Of a stretch of 46,858 nt of DNA, positions 4,929-19,979 are shown piece by piece (within the stretch, counting starts at the first letter, position 1; each line of letters opens with the position of its first letter). Source of the stretch: a virus; the IMG/VR virus record IMGVR_UViG_3300048835_000195, positions 1 to 46,858 of that record. One strand, written 5' to 3'. The position numbers and the translations under genes were made by a program. The notes below the pieces were generated by a model. The model did no database searches. It was given only the letters and a program-made list of their open reading frames with translations, and was not told the DNA's origin.

Positions 4929-5296
4929 TGGCGAAGTATTACCCGCCCCTCCAGACCGGCCGCGCGGCCATTATGGCAAACCTGCGTCGGGAGATTCAGG
5001 GAATTGAGAACCGCACGGCAGCGGGGTTGCTGAAGGCGGGCCTGGTCGTCGAGGGCGAGAGCAACATCCTGGCGCCGGTCGATACGGGGGCGCTGGTCAA
5101 CAGCAGTTTCACTCGCCAGATCGACGAGAACGAAGTCGTCGTCGGCTACGGCGCTGCTTACGCGCCCTTCGTCCACGAGAAGCCGGGGCAGCAGTTCCAG
5201 AAGCCCGGAGCCGAGCACAAGTTTCTTGAGAAGGCCGTGGACCGCAACGCTGACCAGATCGTGCAGATCATCGCCCAGGAGGCGAAGGTTCGATGA
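4928..5296 (+). CDS. Neck protein, HK97 gp10-like
   Basis: A 122-residue protein with the gp10 signature: helix AGLLKAGLVVEGESNILAPVDTGALVNS, then beta strands VVVGYGAAYAPFVHEK and a final helix HKFLEKAVDRNADQIVQII. HK97 gp10-like proteins join tail to head. The tail terminator that normally follows directly is here 4 kb away, separated by four inserted genes. It overlaps the next start (ATGA). Confidence 0.85.
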   Translation: MAKYYPPLQTGRAAIMANLRREIQGIENRTAAGLLKAGLVVEGESNILAPVDTGALVNSSFTRQIDENEVVVGYGAAYAPFVHEKPGQQFQKPGAEHKFLEKAVDRNADQIVQIIAQEAKVR

Positions 5297-6714
5297 AACG
5301 TTTGATCATTGCACTGATGGCGCTGTGCGCCGTGGCCCACGCCGACGACCCGCTGGTCTACGTTAGCTCGTGGAATACCGGCGTCAACCGCAACGCGACG
5401 GGCCAGAACCTCGCGGCGCAGCTTGACCGCATCGAGGAAGGCGAGCCGATTTTGCCGGTCTTCCAGTTGCCGAGTCCCGGCTTCGGGGCATCGGCAGATC
5501 CGGCGTCCCTGGCGCGGCTGGCGGAGTTGGGGCTGGCGTTCTCGGTGCGGGTGAACAACGCGGCCAACTATGTGGCTGACATTGAGTCGATCGATAGCTG
5601 GCGGGTGGCGGGGGAGGAGATCGGGCGCGAACTGGCGACGATCGCGGCGCTGGTGCCGGAGCCGCCGCTGGTGATCCTGGCCGACAACAACGAGGGGACG
5701 AAGGCCGAGGCGGGGACGCCGGAGCGGATGGGGGCGCTGCATGACGCCATCGAGGCGCAGTTGCCGGTGGCGTGGCAGCAGGTCATCCGGCATGTGGGCT
5801 ACGGGGTCGGGCCGGTCTCGCATGAACTGGGGCGGAGCGGCTGGCGCGAAAGCGATGTGCGGCCGGACCGGCTGGGCGCGTGGGACGGTGGGAGCCAGCC
5901 TGCGCTGTATATCCATAGCTGGCGGACGAAAGAGAACGACACGACGGTGCTCGGGCCGCAGTTGTTCGCGGTGAACGTGGCCTATGGGCTGCGGCTGCTG
6001 GAAGAGACGCGGGCGGACTGGTGGCCGGAACTGAGCATCTGGCATGGGGAGTCGAAGGGGATTGCCGAGACGGGGCTGACGCCGGAGCGGTATGCGGGTT
6101 ATGCGATGCTCGGGGCGTTCGTGGCGCGGCCGCGCGTGCTGCGGGAGTTTCTGAGTTCGGCGCTGCCGTTCGCGGCCTATGAGGACTACACGCGGGCGCT
6201 GTATGGCGTCGCCAAGCGCATCAACGGCGACGCGACGGTGCGGCGGTTCTGGGAGCGGGGCGAGCCGGTGATCAGCAGCCTGCCCTCGCCGCTGTGGCGC
6301 GACAGGCAGGACCTGCCGCTGGAGCATTACCGGCAGCGGGTGCTGCATACGCCGGCCAACCCGAAGCCCGCGCGGAAGGCGGACGGGACGTGGGACAAGT
6401 CGATCTGGAGTCTGGGGCCGGAATACCTGACGGAGCTGAACGTGTTCGCGGCGGCGATGGTGATCGATGACCGGGAGTATCTGGTGTTCGCGCAAGCGCC
6501 GAAGGGGCCGCTGACGGACGTGGCGGTGGACGTGCCGGGGCTGGGGACGGTGACGCTGTCGGTTGTTCCGCCCGAGGGGGATTTCTTCTATTTCGATGCG
6601 ACGCCGGATGCGCCGCAGGAGCCGGAGATTCCGGTGCCGGTGCCGGGGCGAAAGCCAATGGAAATTATCGCCGATCTGTATCGGCTACTCGACGAACTGG
6701 AGGCTGCACTCTGA
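5293..6714 (+). CDS. Secreted glycosidase-like (TIM-barrel-type) protein
   Basis: A 473-residue protein with a clear signal peptide (MKRLIIALMALCAVAHA, cleavage likely before DD). The mature part starts YVSSWNTGVN and has evenly spaced strand-helix units with acidic strand ends, such as PLVILADNNEGTKAEAG (about residues 126-142) and LSIWHGESKG (about 245-254), which suggests a glycoside-hydrolase-like barrel with Asp/Glu catalytic candidates. A C-terminal Pro-rich linker leads to a short helix (IIADLYRLLDELEAAL) that could dock to the virion. The family is not recognised, and enzymatic activity is inferred. It overlaps its neighbours by 1-4 bases, so it belongs to the same transcript. Confidence 0.6.
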   Translation: MKRLIIALMALCAVAHADDPLVYVSSWNTGVNRNATGQNLAAQLDRIEEGEPILPVFQLPSPGFGASADPASLARLAELGLAFSVRVNNAANYVADIESIDSWRVAGEEIGRELATIAALVPEPPLVILADNNEGTKAEAGTPERMGALHDAIEAQLPVAWQQVIRHVGYGVGPVSHELGRSGWRESDVRPDRLGAWDGGSQPALYIHSWRTKENDTTVLGPQLFAVNVAYGLRLLEETRADWWPELSIWHGESKGIAETGLTPERYAGYAMLGAFVARPRVLREFLSSALPFAAYEDYTRALYGVAKRINGDATVRRFWERGEPVISSLPSPLWRDRQDLPLEHYRQRVLHTPANPKPARKADGTWDKSIWSLGPEYLTELNVFAAAMVIDDREYLVFAQAPKGPLTDVAVDVPGLGTVTLSVVPPEGDFFYFDATPDAPQEPEIPVPVPGRKPMEIIADLYRLLDELEAAL

Positions 6715-7010
6715 TGGCAACTAATTTCACGCAGCGGGACGCGGCGCTTGATGAGATCGCAACGCGGATCACCGGGGAGATCAACCGGATGAATCAGGCG
6801 GTGGCTGCGTTCACCACGGCGAAGGGCAATCTGGCGGCGCTGGCGAGCCAATACGGCGCGATCATCACCGAGATCAACGAATCGGCCACGGCCAGCCCGA
6901 ACGACGCGGCGGTGCAAGCGCAGAAGGCGCGCAAGGACAAATACGTGGCCGACTTTCAGGCGGCGCAGACGCGGGCTACGAGTCTTGAGACGGCCGTGGA
7001 TGGGATCTGA
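6714..7010 (+). CDS. Hypothetical helical protein
   Basis: A 98-residue protein predicted almost wholly helical, with heptad-like spacing (IATRITGEINRMNQAVAAFTTAKGNLAALASQYG...), no Cys and no membrane segment. It is translationally coupled to the glycosidase-like gene before it and the LamG gene after it. It may be a small trimeric stalk or linker; this is speculative. Confidence 0.6.
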   Translation: MATNFTQRDAALDEIATRITGEINRMNQAVAAFTTAKGNLAALASQYGAIITEINESATASPNDAAVQAQKARKDKYVADFQAAQTRATSLETAVDGI

Positions 7011-8179
7011 TGCTGCATGCGCTGCTGATTGCCGTCGCCGTGCTGGCGAGCCCGATCGATGAGATCCGCCGACTGCTGGCAGAAATAGAAGGTGATTTGA
7101 TGGCCTGGGATACGACACCGACAAGGGTTTGCGAGATCACGATCCCTGCTGCACAGGTAGGCGCGGGCGGGGTGACTGATTTCACGGTGCTGCTGAATGA
7201 AGACAGTCTGCCTGCGGAGATTTTCACGGAGGCGAAGGCTGATGGCGCGGACATTCGCGCGGCGCTGGCGAGCGACGGCACGGGGCTCATGACGGTGGAC
7301 GTGATCTTGTTCGACGCGGGGTCTGAGACGGCACTGCTGGCGGTGGGGCCGGTGAGCCTGAGTGCTGCTGTGAGCAACAGCATTTGGCTTTCCTACGGCG
7401 ACGCGGGGGCGAGTGCGCAGACGGGGGCGAATGCGTATGCGGCGCACTGGGCTGGTTACTGGCCGATGTCGGAGGGATCGGGGGGCTCGGTCGCCGATCG
7501 GGTCGCGGGGAACACGGGCACGATCAACGGGGCAAGCTGGACCACGGGCGCGGGCATCCACGATGACGGGCTGGGCTTCGTGACGGATGACTACGTGGAC
7601 GTGGGCGATATCGCGGCTTTGGACCTAAGCGCGTCGCTATCGGTCATCTGCTGGGCGGCGATCAACGCGAACCAGACCGGGACCATCGTCGCCAAGGGGT
7701 TGGGCGGCGAGAGCGATCATGCGTGGGATCTAAAATACCATTCGGCTCCCGAATCGTGGCGTGCATCGTTACGACGCTCCGGCGGACAAATCAACGTGGA
7801 CGCGAACGCAACGGTGGCGGCGGACGGCACGCGCTATCACGTGGCGCTGACGTGGGACGGGACGACGGCGAAGATCTTCCACAACACGACGCAGAGCGCG
7901 TCGCAGTCGGTCAGTTCGCCGTTGAATACGAACAATCGCAGCGTGCGCTTCGGCGGGACGGACCCGGCGGCCGCGTCCAACGCGGACAAATTGAACGGCG
8001 CGATTGCCAGCCTGGCGTTGTTTGACGAAGCGGTGAGCGCGGCGTGGGTGACGACGAACTACAACAACACCTCCGCGCCGGGGAGTTTCGCGACGGCGGG
8101 GACGCCGGGCGATGTGGTGGGCGGGGGCGGGATTTCGATCCCTGTCGCCATGCACTACCGAAGGATGATGAGCCGATGA
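7010..8179 (+). CDS. LamG (concanavalin-like) adhesion protein with DUF2341-like N-part
   Basis: A 389-residue protein. The first residues (MLHALLIAVAVLAS) are hydrophobic, but an internal ATG at 7100 (MAWDTTPTRV) has GAAGG 7 bases upstream and may be the true or a second start. Residues about 35-140 are beta-rich and DUF2341-like. Residues about 143-360 are a LamG jelly-roll: AGYWPMSEGSGGSVADRVAG, VDVGDIAALDLSASLSV, YHVALTWDGT and LNGAIASLALFDEAVS are its typical strands. Such domains bind sugars or proteins. It lies in the insert between neck and tail genes and is probably part of the virion or of adsorption. Confidence 0.7.
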   Translation: MLHALLIAVAVLASPIDEIRRLLAEIEGDLMAWDTTPTRVCEITIPAAQVGAGGVTDFTVLLNEDSLPAEIFTEAKADGADIRAALASDGTGLMTVDVILFDAGSETALLAVGPVSLSAAVSNSIWLSYGDAGASAQTGANAYAAHWAGYWPMSEGSGGSVADRVAGNTGTINGASWTTGAGIHDDGLGFVTDDYVDVGDIAALDLSASLSVICWAAINANQTGTIVAKGLGGESDHAWDLKYHSAPESWRASLRRSGGQINVDANATVAADGTRYHVALTWDGTTAKIFHNTTQSASQSVSSPLNTNNRSVRFGGTDPAAASNADKLNGAIASLALFDEAVSAAWVTTNYNNTSAPGSFATAGTPGDVVGGGGISIPVAMHYRRMMSR

Positions 8180-9255
8180 GCCTGATTTTGCGCCAATCCA
8201 CGGCAGTTGATGTGTTGATCGGCCCGTTTGTCGATGCCGAAGACGGCGTGACAGCGGAAACCGAATTGACGATTGCGCAGGCCGATGTGCTGCTCTCAAA
8301 AAATGGGCAGGCGTTGGCGCAGAAGAACGATGATACATCGGCAACCCATGACGCGGCGGGCTATTACAACTGCGAACTGGACGCAACCGATACCGCGACG
8401 GTTGGCACGCTGCGGTTGGTGGTGAGTGAGAGCGGGGCCTTGCCGGTTTTCCATGATTTTCAGGTGGTGGAGGAAGCCATCTACGACGCGCTGTATGCGG
8501 ATGGCGCAACGGGGCTGCTGCCGGCGAACACGACACAGATCGAAGGCGCGGACGCGACGACGACGATCGACGAGCGGGTGAATCAGCAGCTCGCCCTGTT
8601 CGATTTCGGGCTGCTCGTGCGCAATGAACTGGCGACCGAGCTGGCACGGATCGACGCGAACATCTCCTCGCGCTCGACGCTCGCGGCCGGCGCGGCGATG
8701 ACTCTCACAAGCGGGGAGCGCACGGCGCTGGCCGCGGCCATCGAGGCCGCGATCATCAATGAGCTGGACGGCACGGCCGTCATGCAGGCCATCGCGGACC
8801 TGATCGCGGGTGACATGACGACCGGTGACCTGAGTGTGCAGGCGATCGCGGCGGCCACGCGCGATGCGGTGCTCAACCGGGTGCTCGCCAGCAATCATGA
8901 GACGGCGGGCAGCGTGGGCAAGCTGCTGCAATTTTTGGATGCGGCGATTTCCAGCCGGAGCACCTATGCCGGCGGCGACACCTCGGGCGTCTCGACGCTG
9001 CTCAATCGGCTGACCGACGAAAAGTCCGGCTATCTCGACAAGCTCAACGTGGATGGCACGCTCCTGCATACGAGCGCCACGATTGACGGAGTGGACCTGA
9101 CAATGCTGCTGACCTATCTGCTGGCGCTGGTCGCGGGCAAGGTCGTGCGCTCAGGTCCGGATAACGCGCCAGTGCTGACGCTGCGCAATCAGGCCGATGA
9201 TGCGGATCTGGTGAGCGTCACACTGGCGAGCAATGGAGGGCGCACCGTCTCATGA
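8176..9255 (+). CDS. Putative fibre / baseplate-type protein
   Basis: A 359-residue protein starting at ATG 8176, which overlaps the LamG stop (ATGA). Residues 1-100 look like a beta-sandwich attachment domain (LILRQSTAVDVLIGPFVDAEDG... FHDFQVVEE). The rest has repeated helical segments with two ISSRST motifs (residues about 161 and 257), typical of trimeric fibre shafts in siphophages, and a C-terminal beta segment (LRNQADDADLVSVTLASNGGRTVS). It is probably a host-contact or side-fibre component; no close family is recognised. Confidence 0.6.
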   Translation: MSLILRQSTAVDVLIGPFVDAEDGVTAETELTIAQADVLLSKNGQALAQKNDDTSATHDAAGYYNCELDATDTATVGTLRLVVSESGALPVFHDFQVVEEAIYDALYADGATGLLPANTTQIEGADATTTIDERVNQQLALFDFGLLVRNELATELARIDANISSRSTLAAGAAMTLTSGERTALAAAIEAAIINELDGTAVMQAIADLIAGDMTTGDLSVQAIAAATRDAVLNRVLASNHETAGSVGKLLQFLDAAISSRSTYAGGDTSGVSTLLNRLTDEKSGYLDKLNVDGTLLHTSATIDGVDLTMLLTYLLALVAGKVVRSGPDNAPVLTLRNQADDADLVSVTLASNGGRTVS

Positions 9256-9746
9256 GCATCGCCGGCGCCAACCCTGTTGCGTTCTCCTCCTGGGGACTGC
9301 TGGCCACAGCCACGGTCTCAGGCGGCTGGGACGGCTCGACGACGGCCACCAGCCCGGCCGCGATGGTGGCGGAGATCCTGGACGCCGAGGGAATCGGCAC
9401 ACTCGGGACGGATCTTTTTGATTCACACGAGCCGGAGAAGCCCGACGCCTGCATTACCTGCTACGACTCGGGAGGCCTTCCTCCTGATCCCAAGTGGGGC
9501 TACGACCGGCCGCGCGTGCACGTGCGCGTCAGGTCCGCGCCGGGCGACAAAGCCGGCGGCTACACAATCGCAAAGGGCGTGAAGGACATTCTGCTCGGGA
9601 TCACGCCGGGGGAAACCGTTCGCGGCATCACCATGCCGGGGGAGATCAGCCACGAGGGCCAGGACCAGAGCCGCCGACACATTTGGAATCTGAATTTCCT
9701 GTTGATGGTTCAGCCGACCGACGCCGGCAACCGCACCGCACTCTAA
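9252..9746 (+). CDS. Tail terminator / minor capsid-type protein
   Basis: A 164-residue protein with the pattern of phage tail terminators (lambda gpU position): AAMVAEILDAEGIGTLGTDLFDSHEPEKPDACITCYDSGG, then the strand DRPRVHVRVRSAPGDKAGGY and a C-terminal HIWNLNFLLMV strand. It caps the tail tube and joins it to the neck. It overlaps the upstream gene by 4 bases and precedes the tube gene, the standard order. Confidence 0.8.
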   Translation: MSIAGANPVAFSSWGLLATATVSGGWDGSTTATSPAAMVAEILDAEGIGTLGTDLFDSHEPEKPDACITCYDSGGLPPDPKWGYDRPRVHVRVRSAPGDKAGGYTIAKGVKDILLGITPGETVRGITMPGEISHEGQDQSRRHIWNLNFLLMVQPTDAGNRTAL

Positions 9747-9758
9747 GGAGCTACGACC

Positions 9759-10784
9759 ATGTCCGTTCACGTGACCTACGCCAAGGATGTCACCATCGAC
9801 GGGACGCCGATCCCCGCGCGCACCGCGAGCCTCTCGCGCACCGGCAACGTCATCGACGACAGCAATTTTGTCACGTCGGCCGATGGCAATACCTCGCGCA
9901 TGACCGGCCTAAAGGACTGGTCGTGCGAGGTCGAAGGGCACGCGAGCAAGGTGCAGGGGTATAAGGCCGTGCTCAAGAAGTCGGGCACGGCTACGACCCT
10001 GACCACCGAGGCGACGACCAACGTCTCGGGCAAAATCTATCAGATCACCGACGCAGCCAAGCGGGTGCTCGATCCGGATACGGCGGTTGTCGTCGCCGAC
10101 GCCGATGGGGCGCTCGATCCGGGCGAGATCGAGAGCATCGATTACCTGTTCGGCAAGGTGACACTGGACGCGGCCTTCACGCCGAACGGCTCGGTGACGA
10201 TCAGCGGCAAATACCTGCCCATGGCCGTCATCGCTCAGAACCGCGGCAGCTTCGGGCTGGAGATGAGCGGGCAGGACCTGGACGCGACCACGCGGGAGGC
10301 CGCCCAGTCCAACGGCGGCTGGATGGTTCATCAGGTCGGCCTGATCGACATCAGCTCGACCATCGAGCGATTCGATGACATCGCCGGCACCTACGAAGAC
10401 ATCCTGCTCGCGGGTGACCCGGTGCTGCTGGAGTTCAACCTCGCAAACGGCGCCCTGGTCTGCCGCGGCTGGTTCGTGCTGACGGGCGCGAACGCGGACG
10501 GCGAGGTCAGCGGCCAGGAGAACGAGGCGCTGGAATGGGCACTCTACGGTAAGACCGATATCAACTTCGGCTATGAGGCAACGGCCAGCCTGAATGCCGG
10601 CATCAAGGCGCTACTCGACAACTTCTTTGCGCGGACCACGGTGGCGCTGCAATACCTGCCCGACGGCACCAACGGCAGCGGGGGCAACGCCTATGTGTCG
10701 AGCGTCAGTATCAGCGGAGACAACGACAGCGAGCAGTTCAGCGCCACGCTCCTCAGCGCCGGCGCTCTCGCGGCCGTGCCGTAA
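9759..10784 (+). CDS. Major tail tube protein
   Basis: A 341-residue protein preceded by AAGGAG at 7 bases. Two beta-rich halves of similar build are seen: an N-terminal one (VTIDGTPIPARTASLSRTGNVIDDSNFVTSADGNTSRMTGLKDWSCEVEG) and one from about residue 185, each reading like a tail-tube fold with MTGLKDW-type turn. It forms the hollow tube. Position before G/GT chaperones and the tape measure supports it. It is longer than single-domain tube proteins, suggesting a duplication or added outer domain. Confidence 0.82.
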   Translation: MSVHVTYAKDVTIDGTPIPARTASLSRTGNVIDDSNFVTSADGNTSRMTGLKDWSCEVEGHASKVQGYKAVLKKSGTATTLTTEATTNVSGKIYQITDAAKRVLDPDTAVVVADADGALDPGEIESIDYLFGKVTLDAAFTPNGSVTISGKYLPMAVIAQNRGSFGLEMSGQDLDATTREAAQSNGGWMVHQVGLIDISSTIERFDDIAGTYEDILLAGDPVLLEFNLANGALVCRGWFVLTGANADGEVSGQENEALEWALYGKTDINFGYEATASLNAGIKALLDNFFARTTVALQYLPDGTNGSGGNAYVSSVSISGDNDSEQFSATLLSAGALAAVP

Positions 10785-10887
10785 CAGCCAGCAGCGGCCA
10801 ATGTTGGCCATTAACGGACAGCAATGGACTTTACGCCGCTGGGGGAATGCCTCGGCGGCCAACCCATACCAAAGAGCAAGGTGATTT

Positions 10888-11283
10888 ATGAGCAACCGAG
10901 ACAAGATCCGTTCGGCATTTCTGAACCAGCCCAAGCGCAAGCAGGGCGAGCTGGTGACGTCCAGCGACGGCGAAGCTCAGGTGGAAGTGCGGCCGCTGTC
11001 GATCTCCGCCCGCCGTGAGCTGGCGCGCAAGTCGGTCGTTGACGACGTGGTCGACATGACGCGCATGAAGCTCTACGCCATCGGCGCGATGTGCTATGAG
11101 CCGGGGACCGACACGCTGGTATTCGAGGACACCGACATCGACGTCATGCTCGGCCAGCTCTGCGGTAGCGACGTGGATAAGCTGGGCGACCTCTGCGTGA
11201 AGCTCATGAACGGGACCGCCGAGGCCAAGGCGGAAGCGGAAAAAAACTCCGAGGGGACCCCGAGCGACAATTCCTCTTCGTGA
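10888..11283 (+). CDS. Tail assembly chaperone G
   Basis: A 131-residue chaperone that coats the tape measure while the tail forms. It has the usual N-terminal beta segment (VEVRPLSISARRELARKS) and helical core (MTRMKLYAIGAMCYEPGTDTLVF), ending in a Lys/Glu/Asn-rich tail. Near the 3' end lies the slippery heptamer A AAA AAC (11241-11247), which feeds a longer GT product. AAGGTGAT precedes the ATG. Confidence 0.85.
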   Translation: MSNRDKIRSAFLNQPKRKQGELVTSSDGEAQVEVRPLSISARRELARKSVVDDVVDMTRMKLYAIGAMCYEPGTDTLVFEDTDIDVMLGQLCGSDVDKLGDLCVKLMNGTAEAKAEAEKNSEGTPSDNSSS

Positions 11284-11447
11284 TCGCGGAGATGCTCGGG
11301 TGTCCCGTCTGCGAGTTGGAGGAGCGGATGCCGGCGACGGAGCTCGATGACTGGGTGACGTTCCTCACGATCCGGCGGGAGCAGGAAGAAAAGGCAATGC
11401 ACGAGGCCAGGGCAAAGAACAGGCACGGCAGGAAGGGGCGGCGCTGA
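10888..11447 (+). CDS. Tail assembly chaperone GT, made by -1 frameshift
   Basis: A -1 slip on A AAA AAC (11241-11247, zero-frame codons AAA AAC) moves reading into a frame open from 11247 to the TGA at 11445-11447. The product is about 186 residues. The T part has the expected helical content: LFVIAEMLGCPVCELEERM then TELDDWVTFLTIRREQEEKA and a basic C-terminus. It ends exactly at the tape-measure ATG (TGATG). Lambda G/GT sets the precedent; frameshift efficiency is unknown. Confidence 0.8.
11241..11247 (+). promoter_or_regulatory. Slippery site for programmed -1 frameshift
   Basis: The heptamer A AAA AAC fits the X XXY YYZ rule in the correct phase of gene G and lies within a run of seven A. 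A GC-rich stretch follows and could form the stimulatory structure, but no clear pseudoknot was resolved by eye. Confidence 0.75.
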
Positions 11448-13813
11448 TGGCGACGGATCTCGGCAGTCTCTTTGTGCGCATCGGCTCGGAAACCTCGGGC
11501 CTCAAGCAGGGTGAGCGCGAGGTTGACCGTTCGACGCGCAAGATGGAGCAGAACATCCGGCGGACCGAAGGGGCGGCCAAGAAGCTGTGGCTGGCAATCG
11601 GCGGGACGGCCGCGATCTATGCCGGCGTTCGCATGGGCAAGGCCGTGGTCGAGGCCTCGATCGCCATGGAGCGGATCGACAACAGCCTGCGGGCGGCGAC
11701 GGGCAGCGCTCAGCTGGCGCAGCGGGAGTTTGCGTTTGTGCGGGGCGAGGCGGAACGGCTGGGGCTGAATCTGCTGTCATCGGCGGATGCCTACTCGCAG
11801 CTCACGGCTGCCACGCGCGGCACTGAGCTTGCGGGGCAGGCCACGCGCGACATTTTCATTGGGGTTAGCGAGGCGGCGACGGTGCTCGGGCTCTCGGCCT
11901 ATGAGACCGAGGGGGCGCTCAGGGCTATCGAGCAGATGGTCTCCAAGGGCAATGTGCAGGCCGAGGAATTGAGAGGTCAGCTTGGCGAGCGTCTGCCAGG
12001 GGCGTTTCAGATTGCCGCGCGGGCGATGGGCGTCACGACGCAAGAGCTAAACAAAATGCTCGACGAGGGGCAGGTGCTCGCGTCTGACCTGCTGCCCAAG
12101 CTGGCTGCGGAACTGCGGAAAACGTTCTCTAAGGATATTGAGAACGCGGTCAACGGCACGCAGCAGGCGATCAACCGGTTCAAAACAGCGGTGTTCGATC
12201 TCAAGGTCGCGATTGGGGATTCCGGATTTGTTGACGCATTCGCCGCGAGTCTGCGGGGGCTGACAAGCGTGCTCCGGGAGCTTCCGGTCATTGCGCGGGC
12301 GGGGGCGCTGACCGTCAACGACATTTTCCTGGCTTACGCCGAAGGCGCCAGAATGATCAGCAAGCTGCCGGGCCCTGCGGGAATGATGAAGATTTTTGGC
12401 TCTGACCCAGCCGAGATCGACAGAATCATCGCCCATTACAGGCGGTTGGGAGTTGAGCTGCGCAAGGAACTCGACAACCTGCATCTGCCGCCGGACTTCA
12501 ACGACCCCATCAACCCGGTCGGCCGTTCCGGCGCGGGTGCGGCCGCCGATGGTGCCGCCGGCGAAGCGGCAAAGAAGAAAGCCGACGCCTACGCGCAAGC
12601 CGCGGCTGCGCTCCGGCTGGAGAACGAGGCGCTCCAGCTCACCCTTGCAGGCCGGGAGAGGGAGATTCCGCTGCTGGAACTGACTGCGAAGCTCAAGGCT
12701 GACGACGTGACCATGAGCAAGGATCAGCGAGACGCCTATCAGGCGCTGGTTGACCAGAACATCAGCTTGACCTCGGCGATTGAGGCGAAGAATGAGGCGG
12801 AGGCCGAAGCCAAGCGACTGGCGGAGCAACGCGCGGCGCAGATCCAGCGCGAAGAGCAGTCGATTGCCGACCTGATCAGCAGGCAGGGCGAGCAGCTCAC
12901 GGTGCTCTATCAGAAGCTGCAGGGTGACGAAGAGCAGGCGCGTTGGCTGGAGACGCTGAACGGGCTGAACCTGGAACTGACCAGCCTGACCGATGAGCAG
13001 ACCCAAGCCATCAAGGCCAACCTCGCGGCCATCGAGGAGTACAACACGGCTTTGGCGGAGAAGCAGCGCATCGAGCAGGTCGCGGCCGACGTGATCGAGC
13101 GCCAGATCACCGCCGAAGAGCGCCGGGCGGCGGCTATCCGCGATGTCGAGGCGGCGCTGACTAGGCAGCTGCTCACCGAACAGCAGGCGGCGGCAGAGAT
13201 CCAGCGACTGGAACTGGAGGGCAACAAGCTCTACCAACTCGCCACCGGCATGAAAGACGAGTTCGCCGCGACGTTCACCGACATCATCATCGGGGCGGAA
13301 AGCGCAGGGGACGCATTCATCAACCTGGCCAAACAGATCGAGAAGGCCATCGTGCAAGCGCTGATGCTGCGGGCGATCAATGCGGGGATCGATTCAATTT
13401 TCGCCGGGGCTGGCAGCGCGGGATCGGTTGCTACTGTAGACGGCAACGCTGGCGGCGCCATCAGCTACGGCATGGCCAAGGGCGGAATCATCGACCGCCC
13501 GACATGGGTATCCCCGACGCAATACGCGGGCGAGGCGGGGCCCGAGGCCGTCCTTCCGCTCACCCGCACGCGCGGGGGAAACCTGGGCGTCATGGCGATG
13601 GGGGGCGAGCAGGGGCCGCCGGTGATCGTCCAGGTGATCGACCAGCGCAAGGGTGGGGGCGAGATCGAGCGGCAGGAGTCAACGGGCCCGAATGGCGAGC
13701 GCCAGATCCAGCTCTTCATCCGCGACGAGGTGCGGCGCCAGATGGATCAGGGCAACTTCGACGGGGCGCTCCGCCGCAATTACGGCGTCACGCGCACGGG
13801 GAGCGGACGATGA
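11447..13813 (+). CDS. Tape measure protein
   Basis: A 788-residue helical protein that sets tail length; at the usual 0.15 nm per residue the tail would be near 120 nm. The N-terminal TMP domain is recognisable: LFVRIGSETSGLKQGEREVDRSTRKM, AYSQLTAATRGTELAGQA, and VSKGNVQAEELRGQLGERLPGAFQIAARAMG (about residues 165-195). Residues about 375-580 are charged coiled coil. The C-terminus is lambda-type, with GGAISYGMAKGGIIDRPTWVSP and YAGEAGPEAVLPL. It overlaps the chaperone stop and the next start. Confidence 0.9.
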   Translation: MATDLGSLFVRIGSETSGLKQGEREVDRSTRKMEQNIRRTEGAAKKLWLAIGGTAAIYAGVRMGKAVVEASIAMERIDNSLRAATGSAQLAQREFAFVRGEAERLGLNLLSSADAYSQLTAATRGTELAGQATRDIFIGVSEAATVLGLSAYETEGALRAIEQMVSKGNVQAEELRGQLGERLPGAFQIAARAMGVTTQELNKMLDEGQVLASDLLPKLAAELRKTFSKDIENAVNGTQQAINRFKTAVFDLKVAIGDSGFVDAFAASLRGLTSVLRELPVIARAGALTVNDIFLAYAEGARMISKLPGPAGMMKIFGSDPAEIDRIIAHYRRLGVELRKELDNLHLPPDFNDPINPVGRSGAGAAADGAAGEAAKKKADAYAQAAAALRLENEALQLTLAGREREIPLLELTAKLKADDVTMSKDQRDAYQALVDQNISLTSAIEAKNEAEAEAKRLAEQRAAQIQREEQSIADLISRQGEQLTVLYQKLQGDEEQARWLETLNGLNLELTSLTDEQTQAIKANLAAIEEYNTALAEKQRIEQVAADVIERQITAEERRAAAIRDVEAALTRQLLTEQQAAAEIQRLELEGNKLYQLATGMKDEFAATFTDIIIGAESAGDAFINLAKQIEKAIVQALMLRAINAGIDSIFAGAGSAGSVATVDGNAGGAISYGMAKGGIIDRPTWVSPTQYAGEAGPEAVLPLTRTRGGNLGVMAMGGEQGPPVIVQVIDQRKGGGEIERQESTGPNGERQIQLFIRDEVRRQMDQGNFDGALRRNYGVTRTGSGR

Positions 13814-14811
13814 GCAACGCGCAATGGCCGGCCAGCCTTCCGCAATCCTACCTGCTGATCGGGCAGACCGAGCAGGCTCCGAACCTGATGTTGCGCACGC
13901 AGATGGACGCGGGCCCGGCCAAAACCCGGAAGCGGTTCACGGCGGGCGTGCGGATGCTCCGCGTGCGCTGGCTGATGACGCGCGCGCAAAAGGATACGTT
14001 CGACGCGTTCTACCGCGAGACGCTGGGCGGCGGGGCGCTGCGGTTTGACTATCGCCGGCAAGATCAGGACGCCAGCAGCGGGCTGACCGGCTTCGGCTCA
14101 TGCCTGGAATTCAATGGCCGCGGCACCTACGTCCGGGTGGCCGACCACGCGAGCCTGAGCGCGGTCTCAAACCACCTGACGATTGAGTTCTGGCTGAAGG
14201 TCAACGACCCGAACGACGAATGCGGTGTGCTGCACAAGACAGCCGCCGGCGGCAATTTTGAATACGCCGTCGAGAAGCCCTCGGGCAACAGCCTGCTGAT
14301 CTTCCGGGGCTACGCGCTTGACGGCAGCAACGCCTACTACCACACCGGCACGATCCCCGATGCGGACTGGCACCACTGGGCGCTCTCGCTCGACGGCAGC
14401 CAGAGCCACCTGTTCCGCGACGGTACGCTGCTGACCAGCGAGGCGAAGCTCGCCGGCAACATGGCCGACGGCTCGGGGGCGCTGGAAATCGGGCGCACGC
14501 CGACCTATGGCACGTTCGGCCGCATTGATGACGTGCGGATCTGGCAGGAGCAACGGACCTCGGAGATCCCCGGCGCCTACAACGCCGAGCTGGTCGGGGA
14601 TGAGACCGACCTCGCGGGCTACTGGCAATTCAACGAGGGGACGGGGATCACCGCGGCAGACAGCCAGACCAGCGGCAACAACGACGGCATAATCATCGGC
14701 GCAAACTGGGTTCCGAACGTCGAGGCCATGCGGATTGTGAGCCCGCCTCAGTATACGGTCGCGAGCCATGAATACTGGCACGTCGACACGGAGCTGGAGG
14801 TCCTGCCCTGA
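13810..14811 (+). CDS. Minor tail protein with an inserted LamG domain
   Basis: A 333-residue protein starting at ATG 13810, overlapping the tape-measure stop. Residues 1-90 (WPASLPQSYLLIG... MDAGPAKTRKRFTAGVRMLRVRW... FDAFYRETLGGGALRFDY) and the last 30 (MRIVSPPQYTVASHEYWHVDTELEVLP region) together look like one small tail-tip protein of about 110 residues found in many siphophages. Between them, residues about 97-300 form a LamG jelly roll with FGSCLEFNGRGTYVRV, DWHHWALSLDG and RIDDVRIWQEQRT. The LamG thus appears grafted into a surface loop and would be displayed at the tail tip. This is direct pattern reading. Confidence 0.75.
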   Translation: MSNAQWPASLPQSYLLIGQTEQAPNLMLRTQMDAGPAKTRKRFTAGVRMLRVRWLMTRAQKDTFDAFYRETLGGGALRFDYRRQDQDASSGLTGFGSCLEFNGRGTYVRVADHASLSAVSNHLTIEFWLKVNDPNDECGVLHKTAAGGNFEYAVEKPSGNSLLIFRGYALDGSNAYYHTGTIPDADWHHWALSLDGSQSHLFRDGTLLTSEAKLAGNMADGSGALEIGRTPTYGTFGRIDDVRIWQEQRTSEIPGAYNAELVGDETDLAGYWQFNEGTGITAADSQTSGNNDGIIIGANWVPNVEAMRIVSPPQYTVASHEYWHVDTELEVLP

Positions 14812-15284
14812 TGGCGCGCTCAGTTTCGGCAGCCTTCAAGCGCGCGGTGTTTGCGCAGGAGACGGACGAGGTTTTCGTCTTCCTGCTGACAATCGAGCAT
14901 GCGGAGCTGGAAGAGCCGATGCGGGTCTGCTCGAACAGCGTGCAGGTGGTATCGCGCGGTGAGGCGTATCTGCCCCTGCCTTTTGGAGCCATGTTCCCCG
15001 GAGAGCATGATGACGAATTGGCCCGCGTGCGCCTTACGATTGACAACGTCGACCGGCGCATCGTCGAGGCGGTCAGGACGATCACGAGCGCCCCAACCGT
15101 GACACTGGAGGCAGTGCTCGCCAGCGCCCCGGATAACGTCGAAGCTGGCCCCTACGATTTTCGTCTGCGCGACGTGCGCTATGACCAGCTTGTTGTGGAG
15201 GGTGAGCTTTCCTTCGAGGATCTGCTGAACGAAGCGTACCCCGAGGGCATCTTCGCGCCCTCAGATTTCCCGGGGATTTTCTGA
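14811..15284 (+). CDS. DUF1833-family tail protein
   Basis: A 157-residue protein with the DUF1833 layout: SVSAAFKRAVFAQETDEVFVFLLTIEH at the start, LPFGAMFPGEHDDELARVRLTIDNVDRRIVEAVR in the middle, and LSFEDLLNEAYPEG near the end. These proteins occupy the lambda gpL position in the tail-tip assembly. It is coupled by one-base overlaps to the genes on both sides. Confidence 0.85.
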   Translation: MARSVSAAFKRAVFAQETDEVFVFLLTIEHAELEEPMRVCSNSVQVVSRGEAYLPLPFGAMFPGEHDDELARVRLTIDNVDRRIVEAVRTITSAPTVTLEAVLASAPDNVEAGPYDFRLRDVRYDQLVVEGELSFEDLLNEAYPEGIFAPSDFPGIF

Positions 15285-15685
15285 TGGACGCCAACCGATA
15301 TATCTCGATCCCGTTTGCCGAGCGTGGGCGCTCCTGGGAGGGCGTGGACTGCTGGGGGCTGGTCTGCCTGATCTACCATGAACAGCTGGGCATCGCGCTT
15401 CCGAGCTACCTGGATGACGATTACAAGACGACCGACGGGCCAACTATCTCATGCCTCATCGGCCAGAGAAAGGCCGAGGGCTGGGAGCCGGTCGCGCCTG
15501 GCACGGAACGCGAGGGGGACGTGATCCTGATGCGGATGGTGGGCCTGCCGTCGCATGTCGGAGTTGTGACACGGCCGGGGAGCATGATCCACGCCCTGCG
15601 CGGCGTGGGCGTCTGTCACGAACGCTACTGGAGCCCGCTATGGGCGAAGCGAATCATGGGGATCTATCGCTATGGGCGTGCCTGA
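15284..15685 (+). CDS. NlpC/P60 tail-tip peptidase (lambda K-like)
   Basis: A 133-residue cysteine peptidase of the NlpC/P60 fold, expected to cut peptidoglycan peptides during entry or to act in tail-tip assembly. Catalytic residues are visible: Cys23 in VDCWGL, His91 in PSHVGVV and His103 in MIHAL. The Jab domain of lambda K is absent. Its end overlaps the tail-tip gene by 14 bases. Confidence 0.9.
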   Translation: MDANRYISIPFAERGRSWEGVDCWGLVCLIYHEQLGIALPSYLDDDYKTTDGPTISCLIGQRKAEGWEPVAPGTEREGDVILMRMVGLPSHVGVVTRPGSMIHALRGVGVCHERYWSPLWAKRIMGIYRYGRA

Positions 15686-18600
15686 GACCCAGCGCCAGCT
15701 TGCCGTTAATCCGGGGCGCGAAATTGACGCCAGAGGGCGTGTAAATGTGGTCACGTGCGCCCGTCCGTTCCTCACGGCGCGCGTGATCCACCAGATTCCC
15801 GAGGGCGGAACTATCCGAGAAATCCTGCAAGCCATCGGGGTGCGGCTTCAGCGCGGCATCAAGCTGACGGTTCAGGTCGGCGGCTACCCTATCCCTGAGG
15901 CGCTATGGGACAGGATCAGGCCAAAGGCGGCGGCTCAGCTCGTGGTCAAGGCCACGCCAGCAGGCGGCGGGGATGGCGGTGGCAGCGGACGCGCCGCACT
16001 CACCATTTTGGTCGCCATCGTTGCGATTGCGGCTTTCGTTTTCGTCGCACCGCTGGCGGCAGCGGGCTTAGGCGCCCTGGGGCTTGGCGCGACGGCAGCC
16101 GGTTACGGCGGGCTGATCGCTGGTGGTCTGGCGGCGGGCGTCGTTTCGTTCGCCGGCGGCCTCGCCGTCAACGCAATCGCCCCTCCGCCGCAGCCTGAAC
16201 TGGGGCGACTATCCGGATCGGGCGGCGGGCAAGACAGGGCGAGCCAGACGCTCTTCCTGCGCGGCGCGCGCAACCAGGCGAGCCCGTTTGGCGTCATCCC
16301 GCGCGTCATGGGCCGCCACCGGATGATCCCGCCCTACGCGGTGGCGCCCTACACCGAGGACCACGCCGATATCTGGATGGCGGCCGCGTTCTGCGTGGGT
16401 TACGGGCCGGTTCTGATCGACGACATTCGCATTGGCGAGGTTAGCGTCGATGATTTTGAAGAGATCGCGGTTGATACGGCTTTTGGCTTTGCGAACGACC
16501 CAACGCTCCAGGTTGAGATCGATGATGAACGTTCGGCCATTCCCCAGGTTCGAGGCGACGACTACAACGTGCTGCTCGAAGAGGGCGAGCCGGTCGTGCG
16601 GACCACGGCACCCAATACGGATCAGATTGCCGTCGATATTCACTTTCCGCGCGGGCTCGTGCTGATCAATGACGAGGGGGAATACGAAAAAAGAAAGGTC
16701 GAACTGCGCTTTGAATATGCCCCTGTAGGCACAGGTAACTGGACGGCGCGAAGCGGTGATGATGAGGACAATGACGGCGAGGAGACCGTTGAAGGCAATG
16801 ACACGAGCGCGCTCTACAAATCATGGGTCTGGAAGGTGGCTCGCGGCCAGTACGATGTGCGAATCACCCGGCTGAATGAAAACGATGAGGGCAAAGACGA
16901 GCACCTGTTTGATGAGGCGTGGCTGTCCAAGCTGACCAGCTACCGGTTTGACCCGCCAGTGAACAAGCCGGGCATGGCCATGTTCTCAATTGGCGTCCGG
17001 GCGAGCGATCAGATCAATGGCGTGCTAGACACCGTCAACGCCGTCATCTGGTCGCTCCTGCCCGACCTGGGCGCGCACCAGGTGCGCTTTGACGGCGGGA
17101 AGGAGCACCTGCGGGCAAAGTATGGCGAGGTCTCCGGTGACCGGCTGAGCCCAAACATCACGGGTGCGGGCGCGCGGACGTATGAATGGTGGATGCTTGC
17201 GGAAACGGACGGCGCCGAGACGCAGGGCGTGTTCGAGGATGGCTTTGGCAACGGCGCTGGTCGCGACTTTTGCTTCCGGCTCCAGAGCAAGGCGACTGAG
17301 ACATGGCGCTTGGATTTCGGCGGCGGGACGGTGTTCGATCAGGCGGTTTCCGGCAGTGTGGACGGTGATTGGCACCACTGGGCCATCACCTATGACGGCA
17401 CGGACGCGCGGCTCTATTTCGACGGAGTCGAGCAGGGCACGGCGCGGACCGTAGCGCTCAACACTGCGGCCGATCGGCTGCGTGTGGCCGAAGTCAACGG
17501 AGTTCGGTTTCGGGGGCGGATTCGGGATTTTCGCAAGTGGAGCGTTGCGCGGTCCCAGAGCGAGATCGACGACAACAAGGCCAACGTCTACACGGGGATG
17601 CCAAGCGAGACGATCCCTGCAGATATTATCAGCCTTTACCCAATGCATGAGGGCCGGGGCGGCTGGTGTATCGACCTCGGGCCGCGGCGTAATCACCTGC
17701 AGCACATGAACACGCCATCCTGGCATGACGTATCGGGCACGGTGACGGAATATTGGGCCATCCGCCCGACGAGCAACCCCGCGAGCATCTTTCGTGAAAT
17801 CCTGCAAGGGAGCGCGAACCGCAACCCGGTGGCGGATTCGCGGATCGACCTCACGACGCTGGAGGCCTGGCATGTCTGGAACCGCGAGAAGGGCAATGCC
17901 TTCAACATGGTGCTCGACTTCCCGAGCACGGTTTTTGAACGGCTGCGCTCGGTGGCGGGAGCGGGCCTTGCGAGCTTCACGATGCGCGACGGCAAATACA
18001 GCGTCGTCATGGATCGCCAGCAAGAGCAGGTAATTCAGCACTTCACTCCTCTTAACTCGTGGGGATTCCAGGGGCGCAAAGTGTTCCGCGATGTTCCCAC
18101 CGCACTCAAGATCCGGTTCGTGAATGCGGACAACGACTGGCAGCAGGATGAGCGAACTGTCTATGACGATGGGCACGACGAGAACACTGACAACGTGTTT
18201 GAGAACCTGGAGCTGCCCGGCATCACCGACCCGGATCAGGTTTGGCGGCATGGACGGCACCACATCGCCGTCTCCAAGCTCCGCCCGGAAACGTACGAAC
18301 TGCGCGTTGACGTGGAGCACATGGTCTGCACGCGCGGCGACCTGGTGAAAGTTACGCATGACATTATGCTGGTCGGCCTCGGCTGGGGGCGCATTAAAGC
18401 CGTGTCACTGGACGGCGACGGCAAGGCGCTGGCGCTCCAGACCGATGAGCGTTTCACGATGGAGGCAGGGAAAACCTATCAGGTCACAGTGCGCGGCGAT
18501 ACCGGCGCATCCTACACCCATACCGTGATCACCGAAGAGGGTGAATGGAACACGCTTCGGCTCTCAACACCGACAGCGGACGGCATACAGGCGGGCGATC

Positions 18601-19979
18601 TGCTGATGTTCGGCGAGAGCGGCAAGGTCACTAGCAACATGCTGGTTAAGAGCGTCGAGCCGCACGAGGACATGACGGCGCTCCTGACGCTGGTCGACGA
18701 ATCGCCGGGCATCTACACAGCGGCGGACGGCGAGATTCCACCCTGGAATCCGAACATCACGCTCCCGCCCGACGACGAGCGCATGCCGCCGCCACCGACG
18801 ATCACTCATATCGTGGCCGACGAATCGGCGCTGCTCCGGGACGGCGACGGCGCTTTCATCGTCCGGGCCATGCTCACGATCAGCTACAGCTCGGGCCGCT
18901 GGCAGCCGCCTGATCGCGTCGAGACGCAATTTCGGATCGCGGGCAGCAGCGGCTGGGCCTCGACGGGCATGCAGCCGCTCCAGGGCCGCGTGATCTATGT
19001 GACCGGGGTCGAGGAACGGCGCTACTACGAATTCCGCGTGCGCACGGTCTCGCGGCTGGGGCAGATCAGCGAATGGAGTGCGTATCACTCGGCCTACATC
19101 ATCGGCAAGACGAGCCTTCCGCCGACCGTTCAGGGACTGCGAGTGACAGAACTGTCTGGCGGCACGCGCAAGATCAGCTGGAGCACGGCCAATCAGCCGC
19201 TCGACTACCGCGGCGTCAAGATCCGCTATTACCTCGGCTCGACCAGCGACTGGTCGGCAATGACCGACCTGGCCGACACGATCTATGCCGAGAGCCCTGT
19301 CGAGACGGTGCGGCCGACCGCAGGCGGCGCTTACACGTTCGCAGCCAAAGCGGTGGACTATAGCGGCAACGAGAGCGCGAACGCGGCGTTCTACGAGGTC
19401 GAACTGGACGCGATCCCGACGCCCGGCGTGAAGGTATTCCAGGACGCGCGCGAAATGGGCTGGCCGGGGACGCTTGGCGCTCAGAACTACATCGAGGACG
19501 GCGTGATCCGCGGCGGATCATCGGCAACGTGGGACACATGGGAGACCGCGCCGGAGACGTGGGACACCCTGGAGACGTGGCAGGACGGGGCGGCGGCCAC
19601 GCTCACGTATACGCACACGGCGATCGACCTGGGCGCCAGCAAGGCCTACCGCGTGACAACGTGGGGCAAGCTGGCGGGCGACTTCAACACGCAAGTCCAG
19701 ATGAGCTACAGCGACGACGGAGTGAACTATTCAGCCTTTGAGAACGTGGGCGTATTCACCGGGCGCTACGTCATCGTCAAAGTCACCGCGCCGCCCCTGC
19801 CGACGCCCGACAACGAGGTCGTGCTCTCTGAGCTGCATATCACCGTCGAGCCGATGACCACGGACGTGCCGACGATGGCCGACGAGCCGGACAGCGCGAC
19901 CGAGGGGCAGCTCTACGCGAACAGCACCGACCACAAGCTCTACTACTACACGGGCTCGGCCTGGGTAGCGCTCAACTGA
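15672..19979 (+). CDS. Tail tip / host-specificity protein (I-J type) with LamG and FnIII-like domains
   Basis: A 1435-residue central tip protein. Residues about 1-100 are gpI-like (FLTARVIHQIPEGGTIREILQAIG). About 109-175 is a hydrophobic Gly/Ala segment typical of the tail-tip pore. About 195-470 is the J-type core (QASPFGVIPRVMGRHRMIPPYA). Residues about 480-680 are a LamG domain (YEWWMLAETDGAETQGVF, DWHHWAITYDG, RIRDFRKWSVARS) inserted before the second J block (IFREILQGSANRNPVADSRID). From about 1045 there are FnIII-like repeats, then a beta-sandwich and a fibre-docking end (DEPDSATEGQLYANSTDHKLY). It contacts the host receptor; the domain order is seen, receptor type is unknown. Confidence 0.85.
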   Translation: MGVPETQRQLAVNPGREIDARGRVNVVTCARPFLTARVIHQIPEGGTIREILQAIGVRLQRGIKLTVQVGGYPIPEALWDRIRPKAAAQLVVKATPAGGGDGGGSGRAALTILVAIVAIAAFVFVAPLAAAGLGALGLGATAAGYGGLIAGGLAAGVVSFAGGLAVNAIAPPPQPELGRLSGSGGGQDRASQTLFLRGARNQASPFGVIPRVMGRHRMIPPYAVAPYTEDHADIWMAAAFCVGYGPVLIDDIRIGEVSVDDFEEIAVDTAFGFANDPTLQVEIDDERSAIPQVRGDDYNVLLEEGEPVVRTTAPNTDQIAVDIHFPRGLVLINDEGEYEKRKVELRFEYAPVGTGNWTARSGDDEDNDGEETVEGNDTSALYKSWVWKVARGQYDVRITRLNENDEGKDEHLFDEAWLSKLTSYRFDPPVNKPGMAMFSIGVRASDQINGVLDTVNAVIWSLLPDLGAHQVRFDGGKEHLRAKYGEVSGDRLSPNITGAGARTYEWWMLAETDGAETQGVFEDGFGNGAGRDFCFRLQSKATETWRLDFGGGTVFDQAVSGSVDGDWHHWAITYDGTDARLYFDGVEQGTARTVALNTAADRLRVAEVNGVRFRGRIRDFRKWSVARSQSEIDDNKANVYTGMPSETIPADIISLYPMHEGRGGWCIDLGPRRNHLQHMNTPSWHDVSGTVTEYWAIRPTSNPASIFREILQGSANRNPVADSRIDLTTLEAWHVWNREKGNAFNMVLDFPSTVFERLRSVAGAGLASFTMRDGKYSVVMDRQQEQVIQHFTPLNSWGFQGRKVFRDVPTALKIRFVNADNDWQQDERTVYDDGHDENTDNVFENLELPGITDPDQVWRHGRHHIAVSKLRPETYELRVDVEHMVCTRGDLVKVTHDIMLVGLGWGRIKAVSLDGDGKALALQTDERFTMEAGKTYQVTVRGDTGASYTHTVITEEGEWNTLRLSTPTADGIQAGDLLMFGESGKVTSNMLVKSVEPHEDMTALLTLVDESPGIYTAADGEIPPWNPNITLPPDDERMPPPPTITHIVADESALLRDGDGAFIVRAMLTISYSSGRWQPPDRVETQFRIAGSSGWASTGMQPLQGRVIYVTGVEERRYYEFRVRTVSRLGQISEWSAYHSAYIIGKTSLPPTVQGLRVTELSGGTRKISWSTANQPLDYRGVKIRYYLGSTSDWSAMTDLADTIYAESPVETVRPTAGGAYTFAAKAVDYSGNESANAAFYEVELDAIPTPGVKVFQDAREMGWPGTLGAQNYIEDGVIRGGSSATWDTWETAPETWDTLETWQDGAAATLTYTHTAIDLGASKAYRVTTWGKLAGDFNTQVQMSYSDDGVNYSAFENVGVFTGRYVIVKVTAPPLPTPDNEVVLSELHITVEPMTTDVPTMADEPDSATEGQLYANSTDHKLYYYTGSAWVALN

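Follow-up and report, generated by a model that had tools for sequence, protein, structure and literature searches.

Gene Organization of the Tail-Tip Region

The window, which is the whole of an IMG/VR virus record of 46.9 kb, carries its structural genes in a lambda-like order. The run starts with terminase and portal genes at the right end and proceeds through genes for a protease, a head decoration protein, the capsid and Neck1 to an accessory group (5293–9255), which is followed by genes for a connector, a candidate tail tube protein, a chaperone, the tape measure protein and the tip proteins (Table 1). Positions 8910–13379 are identical (100% over 4470 bases) to positions 1–4470 of L253, a viral contig (3300048836), so the phage of the window has been seen in another assembly.

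Table 1. Features of the accessory group and tail-tip region discussed in the text.
Feature	Position	Strand	Remarks
P0001	7010..8179	+	389 aa; weak DUF2341-like region, then LamG_3; accessory gene among neck genes
LamG module of P0001	7448..8074	+	Core Pfam match 7583–8050; GYWPMSEGSG segment before core
P0005	8176..9255	+	Neighbour of P0001 in accessory group; N-terminal domain recurs in unrelated phages
Tape measure protein	11447..13813	+	Operon anchor
P0002, gpM-like distal tail protein	13810..14811	+	phrog_384, ~112 aa core, with LamG inside
LamG insert of P0002	14074..14736	+	Core Pfam match 14116–14562; between ...LRFDYRRQDQD and EAMRIVSPPQY...
DUF1833, gpL-like minor tail protein	14811..15284	+	Operon context
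NlpC/P60 peptidase, gpK-like	15284..15685	+	Operon context
P0003, J-type hub/central fibre	15672..19979	+	phrog_31, TipJ family, with LamG inside
LamG insert of J	17055..17741	+	Core Pfam match 17157–17567; loop after FNIII-A domain

LamG Domains of the Window

Three proteins of the window match LamG_3 (PF13385) well above the curated Pfam cut-off of 27.6 bits: P0001 (residues 192–347, E = 1.4e-16, 61 bits), P0002 (residues 103–251, E = 3.1e-19, 70 bits) and P0003 (residues 496–632, E = 2.7e-16, 60 bits). Searching the entire record in all six frames returned the same three places and no fourth LamG_3. The first-pass annotation, which had placed LamG domains in three separate proteins and described two of them as interrupting otherwise recognisable tail proteins, is thus confirmed by Pfam and the six-frame search; the interrupted proteins are P0002 and the J hub, whose relatives are contiguous. 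The DWHHWA motif reported for both tail proteins is indeed present in each (at 14365 and 17367) and is absent from P0001. As a sign of kinship between these two domains it was ruled out: WHH occurs in 46 of the 115 other LamG domains collected, so DWHHWA is a hallmark of the LamG family rather than of a special relationship.

The gpM-like Distal Tail Protein P0002

The largest open reading frame around P0002 begins at 13504, and homology begins at the ATG at 13810, in agreement with the start assigned earlier. The first 80 residues match phrog_384, and the gene lies after the tape measure gene and before those for DUF1833, NlpC/P60 and J, which is the lambda order H-M-L-K-J. Gene order, size and PHROG assignment identify P0002 as a gpM-like distal tail protein; gpM of lambda is a distal tail protein of 109 residues that forms a hexamer (PMC10721106), and the succession tape measure, M, L, K, J together with a core of 112 aa is that of the gpM type. 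When a profile of the M core was compared with solved distal tail proteins, its one hit was the Sf11 distal tail protein, with a non-significant E of 0.61.

Homologs of P0002 in eight phages consist of 117–142 aa without the insert, and the LamG of ~220 residues separates two segments that directly adjoin one another in each of the eight. The M proteins of 124 loci collected from J and phage records have no internal insert of more than 11 aa, and those of 80 more loci, found through M itself, extend over 112–140 aa counted from where the match begins. None of these 204 other loci has a LamG-bearing M, which makes the insert, within that set, a feature of this phage alone; a scan with P0002 for close relatives found none. 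Five loci (L013, L014, L015, L069, L070) encode a gpM-like protein with a C-terminal extension of ~100 residues that lacks a family match.

The insert of P0002 was modelled alone, with 26 other LamG sequences (pTM 0.70). The model resembles the LamG of PAPP-A (Z = 18.4, rmsd 2.4 Å over 177 residues), followed by pentraxins (Z of about 17) and CBM40 (Z = 15.9). The jelly-roll anticipated in the first-pass annotation is therefore recovered by structure prediction for this insert, which in the model is a pentraxin/LamG jelly-roll.

The J-type Hub P0003

P0003 is a J/TipJ-type hub that has kept the gpJ fold: it matches phrog_31 (E = 2e-106), exceeds the cut-off of a TipJ-related NCBIfam and contains FNIII-A. 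The hub model, whose core has pLDDT values mostly over 90, is structurally similar to the hub of Sf11 (Z = 23.3) and to lambda gpJ (Z = 15.0). It places the insert between strands 269–282 and 507–513, after FNIII-A, with the LamG part itself at low confidence.

The LamG insert is missing from eight homologs of J in phages. A LamG is present in the same hub loop in 4 of 109 non-redundant J proteins, namely those of the window, L016, L072 and L076 (it is seen at this site in L072/L075 and L076/L136/L147), and explaining this distribution on a tree of the J core takes two changes or more. At sites other than the LamG loop, PA14 occurs in J proteins of the L069 group, and CBM_4_9 plus a C-terminal LamG in that of L129. 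Insertions universal in these families had been named in advance as an outcome that would speak against captured domains; among the relatives of M and J, LamG inserts proved far from universal. An alignment of nine divergent J proteins yielded no searchable stretch.

Several further features were observed in J proteins. In L072 and L076, the LamG is itself split by ~100 residues that open with YFxxxYF repeats (e.g., YFHAHYFAVGYFTPGYF); repeats of a similar kind occur again in the C-terminal region of the L072 protein. In the five loci with extended gpM-like proteins, a PA14-like domain lies within FNIII-A of the J protein; for L069 it is backed by a Pfam match. At about position 312–319 of the J HMM, an insert of ~105–155 residues at one site, of unknown fold, is found in many loci, mostly alphaproteobacterial (L017, L021–L027, L030, L039 and others). 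The J proteins of L039 and L066 have two inserts (about 160 and 145–180 aa) whose mutual resemblance, with FVPADV..DRI...HGLADGQ-like repeats, suggests that a module was duplicated. Near the C-terminus of J in the window (about 19525–19590) there is a short tryptophan repeat (WDTWETAPETWDTLETW), and a similar stretch is found in L016.

P0001 and the Accessory Group

The start of P0001 overlaps the stop of the preceding open reading frame. Compared with L252 and L254–L260, the adjacent P0005 has an N-terminal domain 49–75% identical to proteins of unrelated phages and a middle part that recurs in others, and its sequence looks like that of a mosaic fibre or appendage protein. The 473-aa open reading frame at 5293–6714 has a signal-peptide-like start (MKRLIIALMALCAVAHADD), and its product matches no family; phage records and viral contigs contain no relative of it.

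P0001 would serve as a third binding protein, itself gained separately and perhaps carried as an appendage of the neck or head. It is possible, although the less probable reading, that it lies outside the adsorption machinery and is instead an accessory or secreted protein whose gene sits between those of the neck and tail. Its N-terminus is hydrophobic, the gene at 5293–6714 opens with the signal-peptide-like sequence, and searches found no full-length relatives of P0001 in phage records and no close ones in phages or viral contigs, all of which would suit such a protein. However, P0001 is encoded within the structural gene run, between the Neck1 (4928) and connector (9252) genes, and in the unrelated viral contig L258 an open reading frame with LamG adjoins a P0005-like gene; both points tell against that reading.

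Origin of the Three LamG Domains

The LamGs of J and of the L016 J protein are reciprocal best matches (64.7 bits) and are paired in trees (support 95/63 and 88). The M LamG scores highest against a domain encoded by a bacterial genome (62.4 bits, versus 42.7 bits to the J LamG), and the P0001 LamG against a Flavobacterium phage (42.4 bits). Because the best matches lie outside the window (J to L016, M to a bacterial protein), separate captures are favoured, though not proved, over duplication within the phage on the basis of sequence comparison, and the three LamGs most likely arrived in this way. Constraining the LamG domains of the window to group lowers the log-likelihood by about 10 to 26 units.

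Duplication within the phage, in which the J LamG gave rise to the M LamG, or a single source to all three, before fast divergence, is an unlikely alternative that has some points on its side. The M and J inserts share the order of core followed by a GYW..NEG segment, whereas P0001 has the segment first, and AU tests did not reject a common origin of all three (p = 0.087), of M with J (p = 0.198) or of J with L016 and M (p = 0.263). The order of core followed by GYW is, however, common in LamG proteins, the best matches of these domains lie elsewhere, and the alignment between the M and J inserts covers only 71 aa (37% identity). DNA similarity between the M and J inserts is confined to short stretches, and the DNA comparison gave no signal of DNA-level duplication. 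Compositional evidence of recent gain was likewise sought and rejected: GC3 is 0.87 in the M core and 0.88 in its insert, and 0.79 in J and 0.77 in its insert, and GC also matches, so the inserts have no recent foreign signature relative to their host genes.

The earlier proposal of repeated capture or spread is supported in its first part. Its second part, spread within the phage, finds no support, as the three LamGs are not mutual best matches and share no meaningful DNA similarity. The phylogeny suggested for separating duplication from independent gain yielded the pairing of J with L016 and left duplication unrejected by the AU tests.

Comparison with Known Decorated Tail Proteins

Evolved Dit and Tal proteins of siphophages of Gram-positive hosts carry inserted carbohydrate-type modules, some of which have been shown to bind hosts; host binding by CBMs is known for Dit, MTP and neck proteins (PMC6669499, PMC7291167). 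The present phage resembles them in having modules of a carbohydrate-binding type within both the distal tail ring and the hub, which would give several per virion. However, the CBM of an evolved Dit is located in loops of the galectin domain of a larger Dit, often of the BppA type, whereas here the LamG fold is inserted directly in a gpM-sized core and a gpJ-type hub. The P0002 core of ~112 aa has the size of undecorated relatives and thus offers no room for a galectin domain, and P0002 does not have a CBM in a galectin-domain loop. By analogy, it may work like an evolved Dit without being one by definition.

Decorated distal tail proteins are also known from siphophages of Gram-negative hosts: T5 pb9 (PMC10038345) and JBD30 gp49 (PMC11445458) bear OB domains, and LSH1 gp24 bears a galactose-binding-like domain (PMC13243795). 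All three combine a tail-tube fold with an added domain of a sugar-binding type, as P0002 would be predicted to do. The OB domain of the JBD30 protein comes after 77 core residues and is followed by 36, compared with 88 and 24 for the LamG of P0002. The added domains are OB or galactose-binding-like in those proteins, whereas here the domain is a LamG and the M relatives in the 204 loci are undecorated.

The hub of lambda gpJ has as insertions FNIII-A and the HDIV beta-sandwich (PMC10721106). The J hub takes extra beta domains in its loops, and FNIII-A is also present in P0003, but there a LamG has been added behind FNIII-A, an insert that is not described in lambda. LamG_3 is found in other phage proteins, several of them annotated as structural, from Brevibacillus phage Sundance, cyanophages and Erythrobacter phage vB_EliS-L02; these are separate proteins that, the domain apart, are not homologous to M or J, and the domain itself is 24–29% identical.

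Proposed Role at the Host Surface

A siphophage with a lambda-type tip probably gained LamG jelly-rolls in loops of its gpM-like ring and J hub, where they would bind glycans at the host surface. With the lambda stoichiometry (gpM hexamer, gpJ trimer), about nine outward-facing LamGs would be present at the tip, and the M-LamG ring and J-LamG trimer would together provide many weak contacts with surface glycans. Through reversible attachment of these LamGs to LPS, capsule or exopolysaccharide, the tip would stay at the surface until the final receptor is found by the distal fibre or the C-terminal part of J. Beyond the fold, we infer every step of this scheme.

Some LamG domains bind proteins, and it is conceivable, if improbable, that those of the window serve for docking or structure, by holding side fibres or stiffening the tip, and do not bind glycans. 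A docking role is known for distal tail proteins: the Sf11 DTP holds tailspikes (PMC12724387). However, no tailspike family was found among the neighbours tested, and the presence of PA14, CBM_4_9 or different LamGs in other J relatives resembles an exchange of ligand-binding modules. Glycan binding with a gain in avidity, the role put forward in the first-pass annotation, is suggested by the fold and by analogy with phages in which modules of such a kind have been tested (PMC6669499, PMC7291167).

Implications

Lectin-type modules for gripping the host are known; the presence of LamGs in two core tip proteins, with a third in an accessory protein, is new and unusual. A broader reading, advanced tentatively and with less than even expectation, is that the J hub of lambda/GTA-type tails, which belong mostly to phages of Gram-negative bacteria, offers a general lectin socket that unrelated LamGs have filled repeatedly at one loop, and PA14 or CBM modules at others, and that this phage extends the tactic to the distal tail ring, giving two different lectin rings at the tip. 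The findings pinpoint the exact M and J loops that tolerate domains of ~220 residues and would extend the evolved Dit/Tal idea from dairy phages to the lambda-type tails of uncultivated, mostly Gram-negative phages. With LamGs in the same J loop in several lineages, the exchange of glycan-binding modules at fixed sockets becomes testable.
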